Positions 14,435 to 62,685 of a stretch of DNA of 64,000 nucleotides are shown here, one piece after another (within the stretch, counting starts at the first letter, position 1; each line of letters begins with the position of its first letter). The notes under the pieces were generated by a model. That model ran no database searches, had not been told where the DNA came from, and was given only the letters and a program-made list of their open reading frames with translations. Both the position numbers and the translations under genes were made by a program. The DNA is from Xanthostigma xanthostigma (Eukaryota > Arthropoda > Insecta > Raphidioptera > Raphidiidae). The DNA lies in the NCBI GenBank assembly GCA_963575645.1, contig OY754473.1, positions 1,302,001 through 1,366,000 of the forward strand, written 5' to 3'.

Positions 14435-14527
14435 TGAAATCTTGCAAGTCGATTTGAATCACTGCTACTTGATCTGTTATTTTGAAATGTTGCATACTTA
14501 TGTAGTATCGATGACAATATTGTAACA

Positions 14528-14990
14528 TAAAATATTTTTAACAAAATAAAGTCGGTTTACGGACGATAGTTTTACGTGATAACGTCATTAAGAAACATTG
14601 AAATGCGTACAAGCCGACGCTTGGGCCGATCGTGCCTCTCTATCGCGTATACCGCGCTCTCGCTTGCACGCTCAGGCTCAGGCGGAACGTGACACTTTTT
14701 CGTGCGTGCAGCCGGTGTTTCATCAATTTATTATTATTTCGTCAAAATTGAACCGACTTAAAAAAATGCACTAAAAAGTAAAAAATAATTGCGTATTGAA
14801 ATGTTTTGGAGTCGGTGTCACATCGGAATTCGAAAGTAGCAGTTTAAATCTTACATGTCTCTAGTTCTCGGAATAGATTTCATTTTGGCTGACACCGACT
14901 CCAAAACATTTCAATACGCAATTATGTTTTACTTTTTAGTGCATTTTTTGAAGTCGGTTCAATTTTTTTGTTAAAAATATTTTATTTTTT
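14528..14990. mobile_element. Palindromic MITE with an A-run element in its left arm
   Basis: The right arm (14884-14985) in reverse complement reads AAAATATTTTTAACAAAAAA, then ATTGAACCGACTTC and onward to GTATTGAAATGTTTTGGAG. The left arm has the same bases at 14528-14545 and 14745-14815, separated by the A-run element at 14546-14745. The outer motif AAGTCGGTTCAATTTTT is a familiar lepidopteran repeat. Confidence 0.75.
14546..14745 (+). mobile_element. A-run element, copy 1
   Basis: Contains GTCGGTTTACGGACGATAG, TTTTACGTGATAACGTC, CTTTTTCGTGCGTGCAGCC and the end TTTCGTCAAAA. The first ~12 bases of the family (TTGGTTGTCTG) are lost. It sits exactly in an A-run of the host palindrome, as shown by the intact opposite arm. 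No coding capacity. Confidence 0.75.
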
Positions 14991-15523: not shown

Positions 15524-15536
15524 ACATTTCACTTAC

Positions 15537-16096
15537 AAATCTTTGATTAACGTCTGAATACAACTCTTCAAATAAATAAAATTATAGAGCAGTTTTTTTC
15601 AGACTATATATTGACAAAAAAATAATATAAAATTATAAATCAACATTTCACTAGATGACGTTTCGATCCGGATTTGGATCTTCTTCAGAAATAATCTAAA
15701 AAATATAAAAATTAATTAGTATATCTACTTATAGTATATATTAATATATCTACTTATATACTCCTACCCTAGCACTGACTTAAGGCAAGTTGAGTAGGAA
15801 AATTCCGTAATTTTAGATTTATAATTTGTTTTGTTTTGTAACATTTGTGTGGGAATAAAATTTATTATTATTTATTTATATATATTTCATATTTTCTAAT
15901 AATTCAAACTCCATTCTATTAGAAAATATAAGTAGATATACTAATTAATTTTTATATTTTTTAGATTATTTCTGAAGAAGATCCAAATCCGGATCGAAAC
16001 GTCATCTAGTGAAATATTGATTTATATAATTTTATTATATTTTTTTGTCAATATATAGTCTGAAAAAAATTGGTCGATAATTTTATTTATTTGGAA
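15537..16096. mobile_element. Palindromic retroelement with hammerhead-like cores and 13-bp target duplication
   Basis: Flanked by a perfect 13-bp direct repeat ACATTTCACTTAC (15524-15536, 16097-16109). Inverted arms (about 15590-15735 and 15915-16075) each contain CTGAAGA, a GATCC/GGATC stem, then GAAACGTC; the plus-strand copy has CTGAAGA at 15972-15978 and GAAA at 15996-15999. This matches the two conserved boxes of a hammerhead ribozyme. The loop holds CCTACCCTAGCACTG, AAGTTGAGTAGGAAAA and AATAAAATTTATTATT, which resemble a LINE 3' tail also present at 62110-62215. Variable-length target duplications of this kind point to target-primed reverse transcription; hammerheads are known in Penelope-like retroelements. 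Confidence 0.65.
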
Positions 16097-16123
16097 ACAT
16101 TTCACTTACGTTGTTGCTAAATA

Positions 16124-28724: not shown

Positions 28725-29095
28725 TGAATTTATTTAGAAAATAGTGAAAATTGCTGTTTTTGAAAACTGATCATAACTTTTTTATTTCTGAAAATAACTG
28801 TGAATGTCTTTTACCATTTTTTGATAACTTTTTAAGGTCTTTTCAGTGGCGTGGGTAGGTATATTTTTTTTATATCCACTACATAAACTTGACATAAACT
28901 TTGGTTTTTAATAGAAGCTATATTGGAATTTTATTCGAATTTTGCTTATTTTTTTGGTTAATTTGATATATCATAACCTAGGTATATCTAACTGAAAACA
29001 AAGTTACAAAACTGATCAAAATAGCTTTTTGACGTTATACTATATACGTCTTGTGAAAAATAACTCTAATAATTTAGAGTGATGATGATCCTGTT
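28725..29095. other. Unassigned AT-rich sequence
   Basis: No match inside the window; nothing recognised. Confidence 0.35.
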
Positions 29096-29099
29096 TTAA

Positions 29100-29400
29100 T
29101 GTCGGAAGATTAAAGGAATAATCCTGGTGGCATAGGATCAATGAACTAAGCAAATACTGAAGGTTTTTTTATTGCATTTTATTGTCTGACGTTTCGGCCA
29201 ACTTTATGCCATCTTCGGAGAATCTAGAAGATTTATATATAAAGTTTTAAATTTTTGTTGTAAAGTTGTTATTGTTAAAGTCATTGTTGTAAAAGTTAAA
29301 GTTAAAAAATTGGAAGTAAAATAAATAAACTTACCAATGCTGTCTGTTTTCTCAGTATTGTTATGTATAAAATAAATTAAAATAAAAAATGTCATCAACG
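29100..29400 (-). mobile_element. Hammerhead-like element, single arm
   Basis: Shares with 39055-39506 the order: GGCATARGATC, AATACTGA, T-run, then ACGTTTCGG-type core, then AACTTACCAA(A)TGCTGTC and TCAGTAT. On the minus strand the core reads CCGAAGA (29212-29218), a TGGC/GCC-capable stem, then GAAACGTC (29188-29195). The second arm is missing, and the first box has one change from the usual CTGAAGA. Confidence 0.5.
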
Positions 29401-39040: not shown

Positions 39041-39054
39041 TCATTAATTTTTAC

Positions 39055-39506
39055 ATGAAGATTGACTCTATTCAATAAATAGAGTAACTGTGATCCATTG
39101 AAGTTAATGATGAGTATTTGGAAAGAATGTCGTGGCATAAGGATCGAAAATGAAGCAATACTGAGATTTTTTTTAAACTACTAACGTTTCGATACGTTTT
39201 ATAACTGTAATTATATTTTTTGAGTTATAAAATTGTTTTGAATTAAAATGTAATTGTTCGTAAATGTTAGAAAACTTACCAAATGCTGTCACATGTTATC
39301 AGTATATTGTTGTTGATGGATTGAGAACAATTTAATTCAAACATTTTAATTCAAAACAATTTTATAACTCAAAAAATATAATCACAGAACACTCTGAAGA
39401 TGATACAAAACGTATCGAAACGTTAGTATTAAATGCAAGTTTAAAAAAAATCTCAGTATTGCTTCATTTTCGATCCTTATGCCACGGAATTCTTTCCAAA
39501 TACTCA
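39055..39506. mobile_element. Palindromic retroelement with hammerhead-like core and 14-bp target duplication
   Basis: Flanked by TCATTAATTTTTAC at 39041-39054 and 39507-39520. Long inverted arms meet near 39300. The plus-strand core has CTGAAGA (39394-39400), a GATAC/GTATC stem, and GAAACGTT (39417-39424). The left arm has only the GAAACGTT part of the core. The left 50 bases (39055-39103) lie outside the palindrome, as in the 15.5-kb element. Penelope-like or similar non-autonomous retroelement is the best guess. Confidence 0.65.
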
Positions 39507-39520
39507 TCATTAATTTTTAC

Positions 39521-49810: not shown

Positions 49811-50576
49811 CAGGGTGTCCCATTAAGAATAGGACATAGAACAACCGCAGATTCTCCAATTCAAAATAAAACGATTAAGCGAAATATGCTTAGATAAAAT
49901 GTTACTTGCTCTACCAGTGGCGTACGGCAGGAGTAAGTAATGCTTGTACCCCTTCTAAATGTTACGCCGCTGTCTGAATTTTAATTTGGACTATAATTTT
50001 AATTTTTTTGATATTTTCTAAGTCAATAATGCACACTTGTTAGTTTGTTGTAAAGTCATTGGTTTTCGAGATATTCGCAGTTAAAGATAGATAGACATGT
50101 ACTTTTTATTTGTATTATTATTAATAATATTCATTTTTACAATTTTGCTTTAAAAAAACTGCGAATATCTCGAAAACCAATGACTTTACAACAAACTAAC
50201 AAGTGTACATTATTGACTTAAAAAATATCAAAAAAATTAAAATTATAGTCCAAATTAAAATTTAGACAGCGGCGTAACATTTAGAAGGGGTACAAGCATT
50301 ACTTACTCCTGCCGTACGCCACTGGTAGAGCGTACTGAACTATTTTTTTTTATTGTTAGGTGCATTTTATGATATTTAACAAGTGTGCCGATTTGAGTAA
50401 AATTATACGGTGTATTAAAAAAATTATGGACATTAATAATTTTTCAGTTTTCAACTTCAACACCCCGTATTTCGGAAACGAGTAACATTTTATCTAAGCT
50501 TATTTCGCTTAATCGTTTTATTTTGAATTGGAGAATCTGCGGTTGTTCTATGTCCCATTCTTAATGAGACACCCTG
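49811..50576. mobile_element. CAGGGTGTC-ended MITE with TA duplication and nested palindrome
   Basis: CAGGGTGTCCCATTAAGAAT and its inverse are the ends; arms are about 100 bp, extending to TAAAATGTTAC. TA flanks at 49809-49810 and 50577-50578; R1 provides the empty site. A 424-bp palindrome sits next to the left arm, and 50335-50480 is single-copy loop. Confidence 0.85.
49908..50331. mobile_element. Inner palindrome, arms of ~190 bp
   Basis: GCTCTACCAGTGGCGTACGG pairs with its inverse at the right edge, and the arms match through TTAGTTTGTTGTAAAGTCAT and GGTTTTCGAGATATTCGCAG. The short centre lies near 50095-50145. It probably entered the outer MITE. Confidence 0.8.
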
Positions 50577-54746: not shown

Positions 54747-55252
54747 TGCCCGTCGGTAAAAATTTTATTGTTACATACTCTCCCCAAACTTTGTATATGG
54801 CTTCATTAGGCCTGGTCTGACACCTATTTCCTCTATGACTTTTCTTGATTTTGGGGAGTTTTCTCTCTAAACTTTCCGAAAGGTGTCGTTTTGACGACAC
54901 ATAAAAATTTATAGATACTGTCTGTTTTTTTAATTGGGTAGCTTAAAAACTTCAACCAAAACGCTAAAATAATGTTCTCTGACAAATAACATGAACCGAT
55001 TAAAATGTCTCACACCTCGAATATGTTCGACATATTCGAGGTGTCAGACATTTTAAATTTACCCAATTAAAAAAACAAACAGTATCTATAAATTTTTACA
55101 TGTCGTCAAAACGGCATCTTTCGGAAACTTTAGAGGGAAAACGCTCCAAAATCAAGAAAAGTCATAGAGGAAATAGATGTCAGACTAGGCCTAATGAAGC
55201 CATATACAAAGTTTGGGGAGAGTATATCAATACAATTTTTGCCGACGGGCAA
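54747..55252. mobile_element. Palindrome O, each arm encoding the same small peptide
   Basis: Arms of about 190-200 bp diverge from a central hairpin (CACCTCGAATATGTTCGAC region, 55014-55047). The minus-strand frame starting at 54900 and the plus-strand frame starting at 55100 both encode MSSKRHLSE, then KIKKSHRGNRCQTRPNEAIY and KVWGEY. A 60-bp stretch in the left arm (54942-55003) is absent from the right. I do not recognise the peptide; its basic start would suit a nuclear protein. Confidence 0.65.
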
Positions 55253-56126: not shown

Positions 56127-56204
56127 ATCTAAGATTTTAACCAAATACTTGTCATTTTGATAATATTTTGTTTTTAAATTGTTAAGATAAATTAAAATGT
56201 ATGA

Positions 56205-56323
56205 TTCAAATCTTTGATTAACGTCTGAATAGAACTCTTCAAATCTAGCGAAATATTGATTTATAATTTAATATTTTTGTCAATATATAGTCTAAAAAAA
56301 TTGGTCGATAATTTTATTTATTT
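56205..56323 (+). mobile_element. Short relative of the 15.5-kb hammerhead-like element
   Basis: Shares AATCTTTGATTAACGTCTGA at the start and TTGGTCGATAATTTTATTTA at the end with 15537-16096 but lacks the palindromic middle. Direct repeats AAAATGTATGA (56194-56204, 56324-56334) flank it. This shows the end sequences are mobile without the cores. Confidence 0.65.
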
Positions 56324-56334
56324 AAAATGTATGA

Positions 56335-57843: not shown

Positions 57844-58437
57844 AGATATATATATATATATATTTAATAGATTGCGGATACACTAGCGCCTCCTGTACCT
57901 TTTAGAAGCCATTTTGTACGTGGAAAACGCCGTAAAAAGCGCGCGAGATTCAAAAATATTAATTATTTTATAATATGATTTTGTTGAGAAAAACAACAAA
58001 ACTCACAGTAAACAGTGATATTTCGCTCCAAAACCTATTTTTATACTGAAACGTTTCAAAAATTACAAAATTGAGCCATAAATATAATGTAAAAGCTTAG
58101 AACATTTTACATTGTCAGATTGGCAACAATGCTTGTCAACCTTGATGCCAAATTGACAACGTAAAATTTTCTAAGCTTTTACATTATATTTATGCTCAAT
58201 TTTGTAAATTTTGAAACGTTTCAGTATAAAAATAGGTTCTGGAGCGAAATATCACTGTTTACTGTGAGTTTTGTTGTTTTTCTCAATAAAATCATATTAT
58301 AAAATAATTAATATTTTTGAATCTTGCGCGCTTTTTACGGCGTTTTCCATGTACAAAATGGCTTCTAATTGGAACCATTCCGCACAATGCTCAAGGATAG
58401 GCATCCGCTATCTATTAATATATATATCTATGATCTG
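57844..58437. mobile_element. Large palindrome P, ~590 bp
   Basis: Arms of about 265 bp: CATAGATATATATATATATA on the left, its inverse on the right, and a nearly uninterrupted match through GCGCGCAAGATTCAAAAATA and AGCTTAGAACATTTTACATT-type bases. The loop is about 40 bp near 58130. No coding capacity. Confidence 0.8.
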
Positions 58438-59078: not shown

Positions 59079-59083
59079 AGAGG

Positions 59084-59160
59084 GTCGCGTAGAGTAGTGG
59101 TTAGCGCGCTGGACTCACGATCTATAGGTGCTGGGTTCGATTCCCGACGTAAGCAGGTTG
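59084..59160 (+). pseudogene. tRNA-derived SINE head
   Basis: GCGTAGAGTAGTGGTTAGCG resembles box A and GGGTTCGATTCCC is a perfect box B at the right spacing. Stems do not close well, so it is a tRNA-like repeat rather than a gene. Confidence 0.6.
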
Positions 59161-59480: not shown

Positions 59481-59800
59481 ACGAACTAAAAAGTGGAAAA
59501 TAAATATAGTTTAAAAAAAACTAAAAAACACGCTTTATATCGAACTAAAATGTAAAAAATATTTTTTTTAAAATAAGCTTAAAACAATAATGAATAAAAA
59601 ATACAAATGTTATTGTGAAAAAAGCGTGGGGCGCTCGATGTACGAAAATGTGGAACAAAGTGCCCTACGCTTTTTTTGCAATAATAGTTGTATTTTTTAT
59701 TCATTATTGTTTTAAGCTTATTTAAAAAAAAATATTTTTTACTTTTTAGTTCGTTATAAAGCGTGTTTTTTAGTTTTTTTTAACTATATTTATTCTACTG
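59481..59800. mobile_element. Palindrome of ~320 bp
   Basis: GAACTAAAAAGTGGAAAATA near the left pairs with TTTTTTACTTTTTAGTTCG; arms of roughly 130 bp also share AACACGCTTTATA and TAAAACAATAATGAATAAA. The central loop is about 45 bp and is GC-richer. Confidence 0.7.
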
Positions 59801-61701: not shown

Positions 61702-61832
61702 TCTGACTGGACTTATTGACTGGCTAATAACATTCTGCACATTATAACATCCATAAAATGTTTATTTTACTATTATTATTATTATAATTATTCAGTTAAA
61801 GTAGTGTTGATCCAATAGAATATTAAGATGAA

Positions 61833-62024
61833 GGAAGGTTTTTGGTTGAGGATCGCAAAATAAGCTTTGCCAGTGTTTCGCTAGTGGCCAACGTTTCGAA
61901 AAATTTATTTTCATCTTGAGGCCCTGAAGATGAAAATAAATTTCTCTAAACGTTGGCCACTAGCCAAACACTGGTAAAGCTTATTTTGCGATCCTCAACC
62001 AAAAACCTTCCTTCATCTTAATTA
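61833..62024. mobile_element. Palindrome with hammerhead-like boxes
   Basis: AAGATGAAGGAAGGTTTTTG and its inverse are the ends; the arms match through GAGGATCGCAAAATAAGC and GGCCAACGTTT. The right arm has CTGAAGA (61924-61930) and TAAACGTT; the left arm in reverse has CTCAAGA and GAAACGTT. Taken together the ancestral core was CTGAAGA-stem-GAAACGTT, but neither arm now keeps both boxes perfect. Confidence 0.6.
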
Positions 62025-62685
62025 TAATAATAATAATAATTATTATTATTATTATTATTATTTTCGTTTATTTACCAGACAGCACAATAATAAATTAGCT
62101 CATAAGAATCCCTACCCTAGAACTGGCATTGCCAAGTTGGGTATGAAAACTCAAATAACTATTATATTGAATTGTATTGTATAATAAAATTATAATAAAA
62201 AAAATAATAATAATATAATTTCATAGTTTAAAGGTCACTAAGAAAGAGTGTCCATAGGCGCATAGCTTAAAAACCAATAGATTTTTAGCCACATAATATA
62301 TGTTTAGCGAGATTTTAGATATAGGAATTCACAAACATATTCTATGTTCAACTTTTGTGCTTTTTTTTGGAAATAGAAAAATAGTCGAAAACTAGGTAAT
62401 GTTGAAAGGCGTCACTCTGTATAAAATAATAATGTCATATTCGGATTCAGCGCACTCGAAAACGTATTTCTAGAGCTTAGTATTTTTTAAGATTGTGAAC
62501 TCAATGGATATCCCTATATCTAAAATCTATAAGCTAAACATAATATCTGTAGTTAAAAATTTAGTTGTTTTTAGGCTATGCGCCCATGGACACTTTTCCT
62601 TAGTGACCTTTAAACTATAAAATAAAACCATTTTCGATCAATTTAACCGAGAACCAAATCCCATACGGTTTGTGCGGGGTCCTTT

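Follow-up and report, generated by a model that had tools for sequence, protein, structure and literature searches.

Five short elements in the window (the whole stretch of Xanthostigma xanthostigma DNA analysed, 64 kb), designated A to E, are probably insertions of an end piece, or pseudo-LTR, of a Penelope-like element (PLE), and the palindromic form of A, C, D and E is best read as a footprint of insertion. A hammerhead-type motif is carried by four of the five elements (A-D), the copies in B and D being damaged. The motif and the elements are real, lie above chance and are mostly known in kind. All five were filed under pseudo-LTR fragments of PLEs and are not called complete PLEs.

Structure of the Elements

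The coordinates of all features are collected in Table 1. Element A had been described, in a reading made from the sequence only, as a palindrome with CTGAAGA, a GATCC/GGATC stem and GAAACGTC in both arms, bounded by a perfect 13-bp repeat, and it was found exactly as claimed. Its arms are approximately 165 bp long and 95% identical, and the motif reads CTGAAGA-A-GATCC-AAATCC-GGATC-GAAACGTC. Stem I is weak in A, with a single pair adjoining the core, and the right arm has an inverted repeat at its end. Within the centre, positions 15763-15806 resemble, by eye, a stretch just right of element D at 62106-62150 (CCTACCCTAG...GGCAAGTTG); to judge from this visual likeness, the stretch may be another repeat captured by A or nested in it.

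Element E was retrieved by BLAST of A against the window. It was absent from the earlier list of related arrangements, has no ribozyme core and measures only about 120 bp between its repeats. Positions 15536-15573 of A and 56207-56244 of E match at 97%, while the sense arm of E is identical to A 16004-16092 at 80 of 81 aligned letters, with eight gap positions. These two are the only copies of the A/E family in the window. Both ends are common to them to within a few bases, but the inner junction is different.

Three further places had been listed in the sequence-only reading as related arrangements. Element B is indeed related, but it is a single arm and not a palindrome, with CCGAAGA in place of CTGAAGA, and no convincing repeat was found at its flanks (best 8 bp). 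The 14-bp repeat of element C is present as described, but only the right arm has kept CTGAAGA; the motif in this arm has the stems ACU/AGU (I) and GATAC/GTATC (II). Element D is a near-perfect palindrome, but its boxes are not intact: one box per arm is damaged, reading CTCAAGA in the minus arm and TAAACGTT in the plus arm. The centre of D is a self-complementary GGCC. All core letters are intact only in both arms of A and in the right arm of C, the copies in B, D and the left arm of C being damaged. Elements B and C also share a similar putative exon end followed by GTAAGT, with an AG just upstream of the motif. A small intron in the 5' UTR is a known feature of Penelope.

Long target duplications had been proposed for the whole group. 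They are perfect in three of the five copies, A (13 bp), C (14 bp) and E (13 bp), while none is convincing in B and that of D is unreadable, lost in an (ATT)n tract. Among 1000 random placements with the same geometry, a direct repeat of at least the observed length was found in 2 for A, 3 for C and 26 for E.

The arms are laid out in a regular way. In every arm the 3' side of the RNA is directed outward, and a tail is present at one end only in all four palindromic elements (A, C, D and E), the evidence being weak for D. Measured from the predicted cut, the tail-less end lies 93 nt away in A, 82 in C, 67 in D and 79-81 in E, and the tail end 120 nt away in A, 128 in C and 97 in D, so that the tail length, as the difference of the two distances, is 27, 46 and 30 nt, respectively. 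No fold shared by the elements between cut and tail is claimed, since the predicted hairpins differ from family to family.

Table 1. Positions of the features of elements A to E within the window (strand left empty where none applies).
Feature	Position	Strand	Remark
A, left target-site duplication ACATTTCACTTAC	15524-15536		perfect 13-bp repeat with 16097-16109
A, tail, this end only	15537-15568	-	beyond the inverted match
A, left arm, sense outward	15569-15733	-	BLAST self-match to 15927-16093, 95%
A, left-arm hammerhead-type motif	15657-15688	-	CTGAAGA-A-GATCC..GGATC-GAAACGTC, core letters all kept
A, centre between arms	15734-15926		not in the inverted match
A, right arm without tail	15927-16096	+	inverted match
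A, right-arm hammerhead-type motif	15972-16003	+	predicted cut after 16003
A, right target-site duplication	16097-16109		repeat of 15524-15536
B, single PLE-type arm, ends approximate	29054-29400	-	C-only profile matches B 3' region, E 0.0073
B, degenerate hammerhead-type motif (CCGAAGA)	29188-29218	-	stem I UCU/AGA, stem II GGC/GCC
B, putative UTR intron, GTAAGT...CTAG, 111 nt	29224-29334	-	resembles C in its exon end
C, left target-site duplication TCATTAATTTTTAC	39041-39054		14-bp repeat with 39507-39520
C, tail, hairpin ACTCTATT..AATAGAGT, this end only	39055-39103	-	
C, left-arm remnant motif, CTGAAGA box lost	39183-39205	-	matched in part by the model, E 0.12
C, putative UTR intron, 75 nt	39205-39279	-	
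C, right-arm hammerhead-type motif, core letters all kept	39394-39424	+	predicted cut after 39424
C, right target-site duplication	39507-39520		its start, TCATTAA (7 letters), fits the element end as well
E, left target-site duplication TTAAAATGTATGA	56192-56204		perfect 13-bp repeat
E, tail, antisense as in A	56205-56244	-	36/37 identical to A tail
E, sense arm	56243-56323	+	starts at +1 to +3 relative to the predicted cut
E, right target-site duplication	56322-56334		perfect 13-bp repeat
D, tail, left end only, boundary approximate	61793-61825	-	B+C profile without D reaches in, E 0.06; weak
D, palindrome	61822-62022		94.5% self-complementary
D, degenerate hammerhead-type motif (CTCAAGA)	61890-61920	-	
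D, degenerate motif (TAAA for GAAA)	61924-61954	+	stem I GGCC/GGCC

The Hammerhead-Type Motif

A descriptor of the motif (CTGANGA, one base, a stem II of at least 3 bp, GAAACGTH), which was chosen after the copies had been seen, gave five matches at up to one mismatch in the 64-kb window, three of them exact and all within A-D. No exact match arose in 60 dinucleotide shuffles, and five of the 60 contained one match at up to one mismatch. At two mismatches the shuffles average 1.6 matches, so this level is uninformative. The box GAAACGTC alone, allowing up to one mismatch, was not enriched in the window (42 observed, 48 expected), and a descriptor with zero insertion gave no match at 0 or 1 mismatch and a single one at 2.

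The alignment used for covariation consisted of five rows, A, B, C-right and the two arms of D, four of which are independent as the D rows come from one element. Six of the eight pairs in stems I and II were changed on both sides, a count reached by 16 of 500 shuffles. Paired cells made up 85%, compared with 28-48% when the stems were slid by one to three columns and 64% in shuffles, and none of the 500 shuffles reached 85%. The count of further pair types, reached by 168 of the 500, was not above shuffles. The earlier claim that the stems covary between copies is thereby supported.

A model built from B, C and D matched both arms of A, which had been left out of the build, at E 9e-4; the same model gives scores as high as that of A to chance occurrences of the core in contigs of bacteria and viruses (23.5 bits for L003 and 22.5 for A). 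Sixteen such stretches, picked for their boxes, came from three scans of viral contigs (0, 7 and 0 stretches) and one of genome contigs (9 stretches); they were rejected as relatives because they look like chance, and served as controls. Nine of the 16 were matched at E≤1, with up to 23.5 bits; stem II is 1-4 bp long in them, and in no case do both stems reach 3 bp. Outside the motif, homology among B, C and D was weak when each was left out in turn (E 0.0073 for B, 0.06 for D, and 5.4 for C from B+D).

In a canonical hammerhead CUGANGA is followed directly by stem II, and then by GAAA, helix III and UH. Elements A-D have one extra base between A9 and stem II, and their helix III would consist of at most two pairs, of ACGU, with no loop, which agrees with the boxes and nearly absent helix III of the original description. 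Judged by its letters, the motif is not a canonical hammerhead. The check by hammerhead covariance models that had been suggested came out against the sequence-only reading, as no Rfam hammerhead match was obtained at the gathering threshold in the whole window or at E≤5 in A, B, C and D. We do not take this outcome as decisive, since a base is inserted in the motif and helix III is missing from it. The strong Rfam matches in C and D were mostly to microRNA families, hairpin models falling on palindromes, and all lay below gathering; those in A were to CRISPR-DR7 and LPR69, also below their gathering scores.

In the predicted folds of the palindromes the core pairs with the opposite core at 32 of 32 positions in A, 18 of 31 in C and 28 of 31 in D. 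If these models hold, the ribozyme of a palindromic transcript would pair with its own mirror copy. The opposed ribozymes seen by the sequence-only reading are present as inverted arms in A, but they are probably not a replicating design, as the inner junctions of A and E differ. In a transcript of A, moreover, the core is predicted to be paired completely with the other arm.

Coding Capacity and Other Features of the Window

The search for PLE genes covered stop-to-stop open reading frames of at least 120 aa. None of the eight such frames in the 64-kb window matched reverse transcriptase (RT) or GIY-YIG, and none overlapped any of A-E. Their only Pfam match, below threshold, was to the unrelated DUF2232. 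A 40-codon open frame in D was rejected as evidence of coding, since 185 of the 1933 ATGs in the window are open for as long.

Four other large palindromes (49908-50331, 54760-55240, 57895-58375 and 59511-59783), picked among the 25 longest of 116 inverted repeats, were rejected as relatives, as they have no complete motif and no clean duplication. The sequence ACGTGATAACGT occurs near 14525, 18601, 32175, 40403 and 60636, and ends like ACGTTATCACGT occur near 14681, 18755, 33061, 41660 and 60727. These paired repeats with complementary ends, not all copies of which are intact, are perhaps a DNA transposon family. A tRNA-like Rfam match at 59083-59155, just above its cut-off (30.3 against 29 bits) and followed by a TGTA repeat, is perhaps the head of a SINE. 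Over positions 1-64000 the observed/expected ratio of CpG is 1.33 and the GC content 34%.

Comparison With Known Elements

The PLE-associated minimal hammerheads described by Lunse and co-workers in 2017 reportedly have a type I-like core with helix III missing, and cleavage as a dimer is said to have been suggested for them. Compared by description only, the motifs in A-D are like them in the type I-like core, the lack of helix III and the link to PLEs.

For Poseidon_Ac, a PLE of Anolis carolinensis (PAc), the comparison draws on part of one paper (PMC11167929). According to that part, the PAc hammerhead cleaved in vitro only with PAc protein present, and it no longer cleaved in the single mutants C3G and G8C, whereas combining the two changes brought back part of the cleavage. 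PAc protein cleaved and extended both target strands in vitro with the same start sites on both, two RT start sites bounded the tail, and ribozyme mutants had no effect on insertion in vitro; Anolis RNA-seq failed to show PLE ribozyme activity in vivo (PMC11167929). The commonest RT start lies 111-118 nt into the ORF (PMC11167929), and with a cut after ORF base 29 this is, by subtraction, 82-89 nt past the cut. From the printed template, with the stem as we draw it, we read the PAc motif as CUGAGGA-U-GCCUGC..GUGGGC-GAAACGUC.

PAc, to the extent described in this source, and A-D thus have in common the CUGANGA box, one extra base, stem II, GAAACGUC, a short stem I and almost no helix III. As in PAc, an AUG overlaps A9 in B, C and D but not in A. 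By this analogy, the motif matches the PLE hammerhead variant that has experimental support in PAc. The tail between two RT start sites and an RT start 82-89 nt past the cut are also like what is seen in A, C, D and E. Unlike PAc, which is tandem and coding in the part described, the present copies are short non-coding pieces, most of them inverted, and outside the motif no clear similarity between PAc and A-E was seen by eye.

Penelope of Adineta vaga, as far as the available text of PMC3846280 describes it, often has inverted, head-to-head pLTRs, one of which may carry a 31-bp tail at its 3' end, and 8-10-bp duplications in some copies. It is like A-E in its inverted pseudo-LTRs, duplications, one-ended tail, solo pseudo-LTRs and microhomology junctions. 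It differs from them in that its copies mostly keep ORF sequence, and the duplications here have 13-14 bp; the word hammerhead occurs nowhere in that paper (PMC3846280). A curation guide names inverted pLTRs and short 3' extensions, in the part available, as peculiarities of individual PLE copies (PMC8969392). The link to PLEs drawn in the earlier reading is supported by the inverted pseudo-LTRs, the target duplications, the one-ended tail and the PAc-like motif.

Proposed Insertion Mechanism

We infer that the palindromes were formed afresh at each insertion, since A and E share their ends and not their inner junction, the simplest route being reverse transcription that starts from both ends of the target. 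The outward direction of the RNA 3' side in every arm implies that RT ran inward from both target ends, and the different centres of A and E argue against a palindrome copied as a unit. The source RNA would have had a 5' UTR with a putative small intron, a minimal hammerhead of the PLE type, about 65-95 nt, a proximal RT start site, a tail of about 27-46 nt and a distal RT start site. The target would be broken with a stagger, and inward reverse transcription of PLE RNA would be primed by each of the two 3' ends, one target end starting at the distal site, so that the tail is kept, and the other at the proximal site. The two cDNAs, each ending at a variable 5' point, would then be joined into a head-to-head palindrome, and filling in of the stagger would give the 13-14-bp duplication. 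The enzyme would be supplied by a PLE elsewhere in the genome. Priming at two ends, this outside supply of enzyme and any role of the ribozyme are what we infer, and the pairing of one tailed with one tail-less end appears regular as judged from four elements. A search among openly licensed PMC papers, outside of which Cervera 2014, Lunse 2017, Arkhipova 2017 and Craig 2021 fall, brought up no derivation of PLE palindromes from two-ended priming.

In its fullest form the proposal is that the palindromes record a two-ended reaction with distal and proximal starts, perhaps with a protein dimer holding the two RNA templates, and that one of the RNAs copied in E had already been cut by its own ribozyme; we put this forward tentatively. 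The start of the E sense arm within +1 to +3 of the predicted cut is a possible trace of a cut template, and only a hint. Against it, PAc reverse transcription started at the same sites on both strands, and ribozyme mutants did not alter insertion in vitro (PMC11167929). E is also a single case, its junction being one among some nine arm ends that we counted and lying inside a 2-base microhomology.

The main rival to two-ended priming accepts that the elements are derived from PLEs and has the nascent cDNA prime itself on an antisense template to give the palindrome; this has been put forward for A. vaga Penelope, where the available text argues from palindromes at inverted junctions (PMC3846280). 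The self-complementary centre of D and the inverted repeat that ends the right arm of A would suit such a process. Self-priming copies one molecule, however, and does not predict the tailed and tail-less ends of the four palindromic elements (weak for D). The arms of A offer a slight hint of different templates, with four own substitutions in the left arm and one in the right over 89 columns (two in the right arm of E), counts that depend on gap placement and are not significant; the view of the two A arms as copies of two RNAs was itself rejected, as the differences are too few. On balance we consider self-priming rather unlikely.

It is improbable that A-E form a dedicated non-autonomous family of the retrozyme kind, making circular RNA by their own ribozyme and borrowing PLE enzymes. 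The model for such a family is found in metazoan retrozymes, which carry type I hammerheads and for which mobilisation by PLEs has been proposed (PMC7761336, PMC7229834, as far as available). Non-LTR retrozymes of metazoans are, in the part of the source available, like A-E in being short, low-GC, non-coding and ribozyme-bearing, with duplications of more than 4 bp (PMC7229834), and A lacks the AUG that overlaps A9 in B, C, D and PAc. Yet the retrozymes described there have canonical type I hammerheads and consist of direct tandem repeats (150-450 bp; PMC7229834), whereas the matches to our descriptor are inverted or single, with a minimal motif and no direct tandem. An inverted pair cannot release a circle, and the core is paired with the opposite core in the predicted folds. 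The non-autonomous family named in the sequence-only reading is accordingly one option, and fragments of coding PLEs are at least as likely.

A DNA transposon of the MITE type with long terminal inverted repeats, moving as a palindromic unit and resembling a hammerhead incidentally, could account for the long inverted repeats of A, C and D and the duplications of A and C, but is very improbable, as A and E share ends and not the inner junction, E has so little between its repeats, the duplications have 13-14 bp, the ends differ by the tail, stems I and II covary, and the four other large palindromes picked from the window have neither a complete hammerhead motif nor a clean duplication.

If the palindromes were indeed laid down by reverse transcription from two target ends, short palindromes that keep their duplications, bear a tail at one end and vary in their inner junction each preserve the footprint of a single insertion. 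In a genome rich in such copies, the distribution of inner junctions would test both two-ended priming and the use of a ribozyme-cut template. Should the cut-template reading of E be true, its cDNA end would record, in the genome, that a PLE ribozyme had acted in vivo. The mode of insertion of PLEs and the reason why they carry a hammerhead are the questions on which these copies bear.
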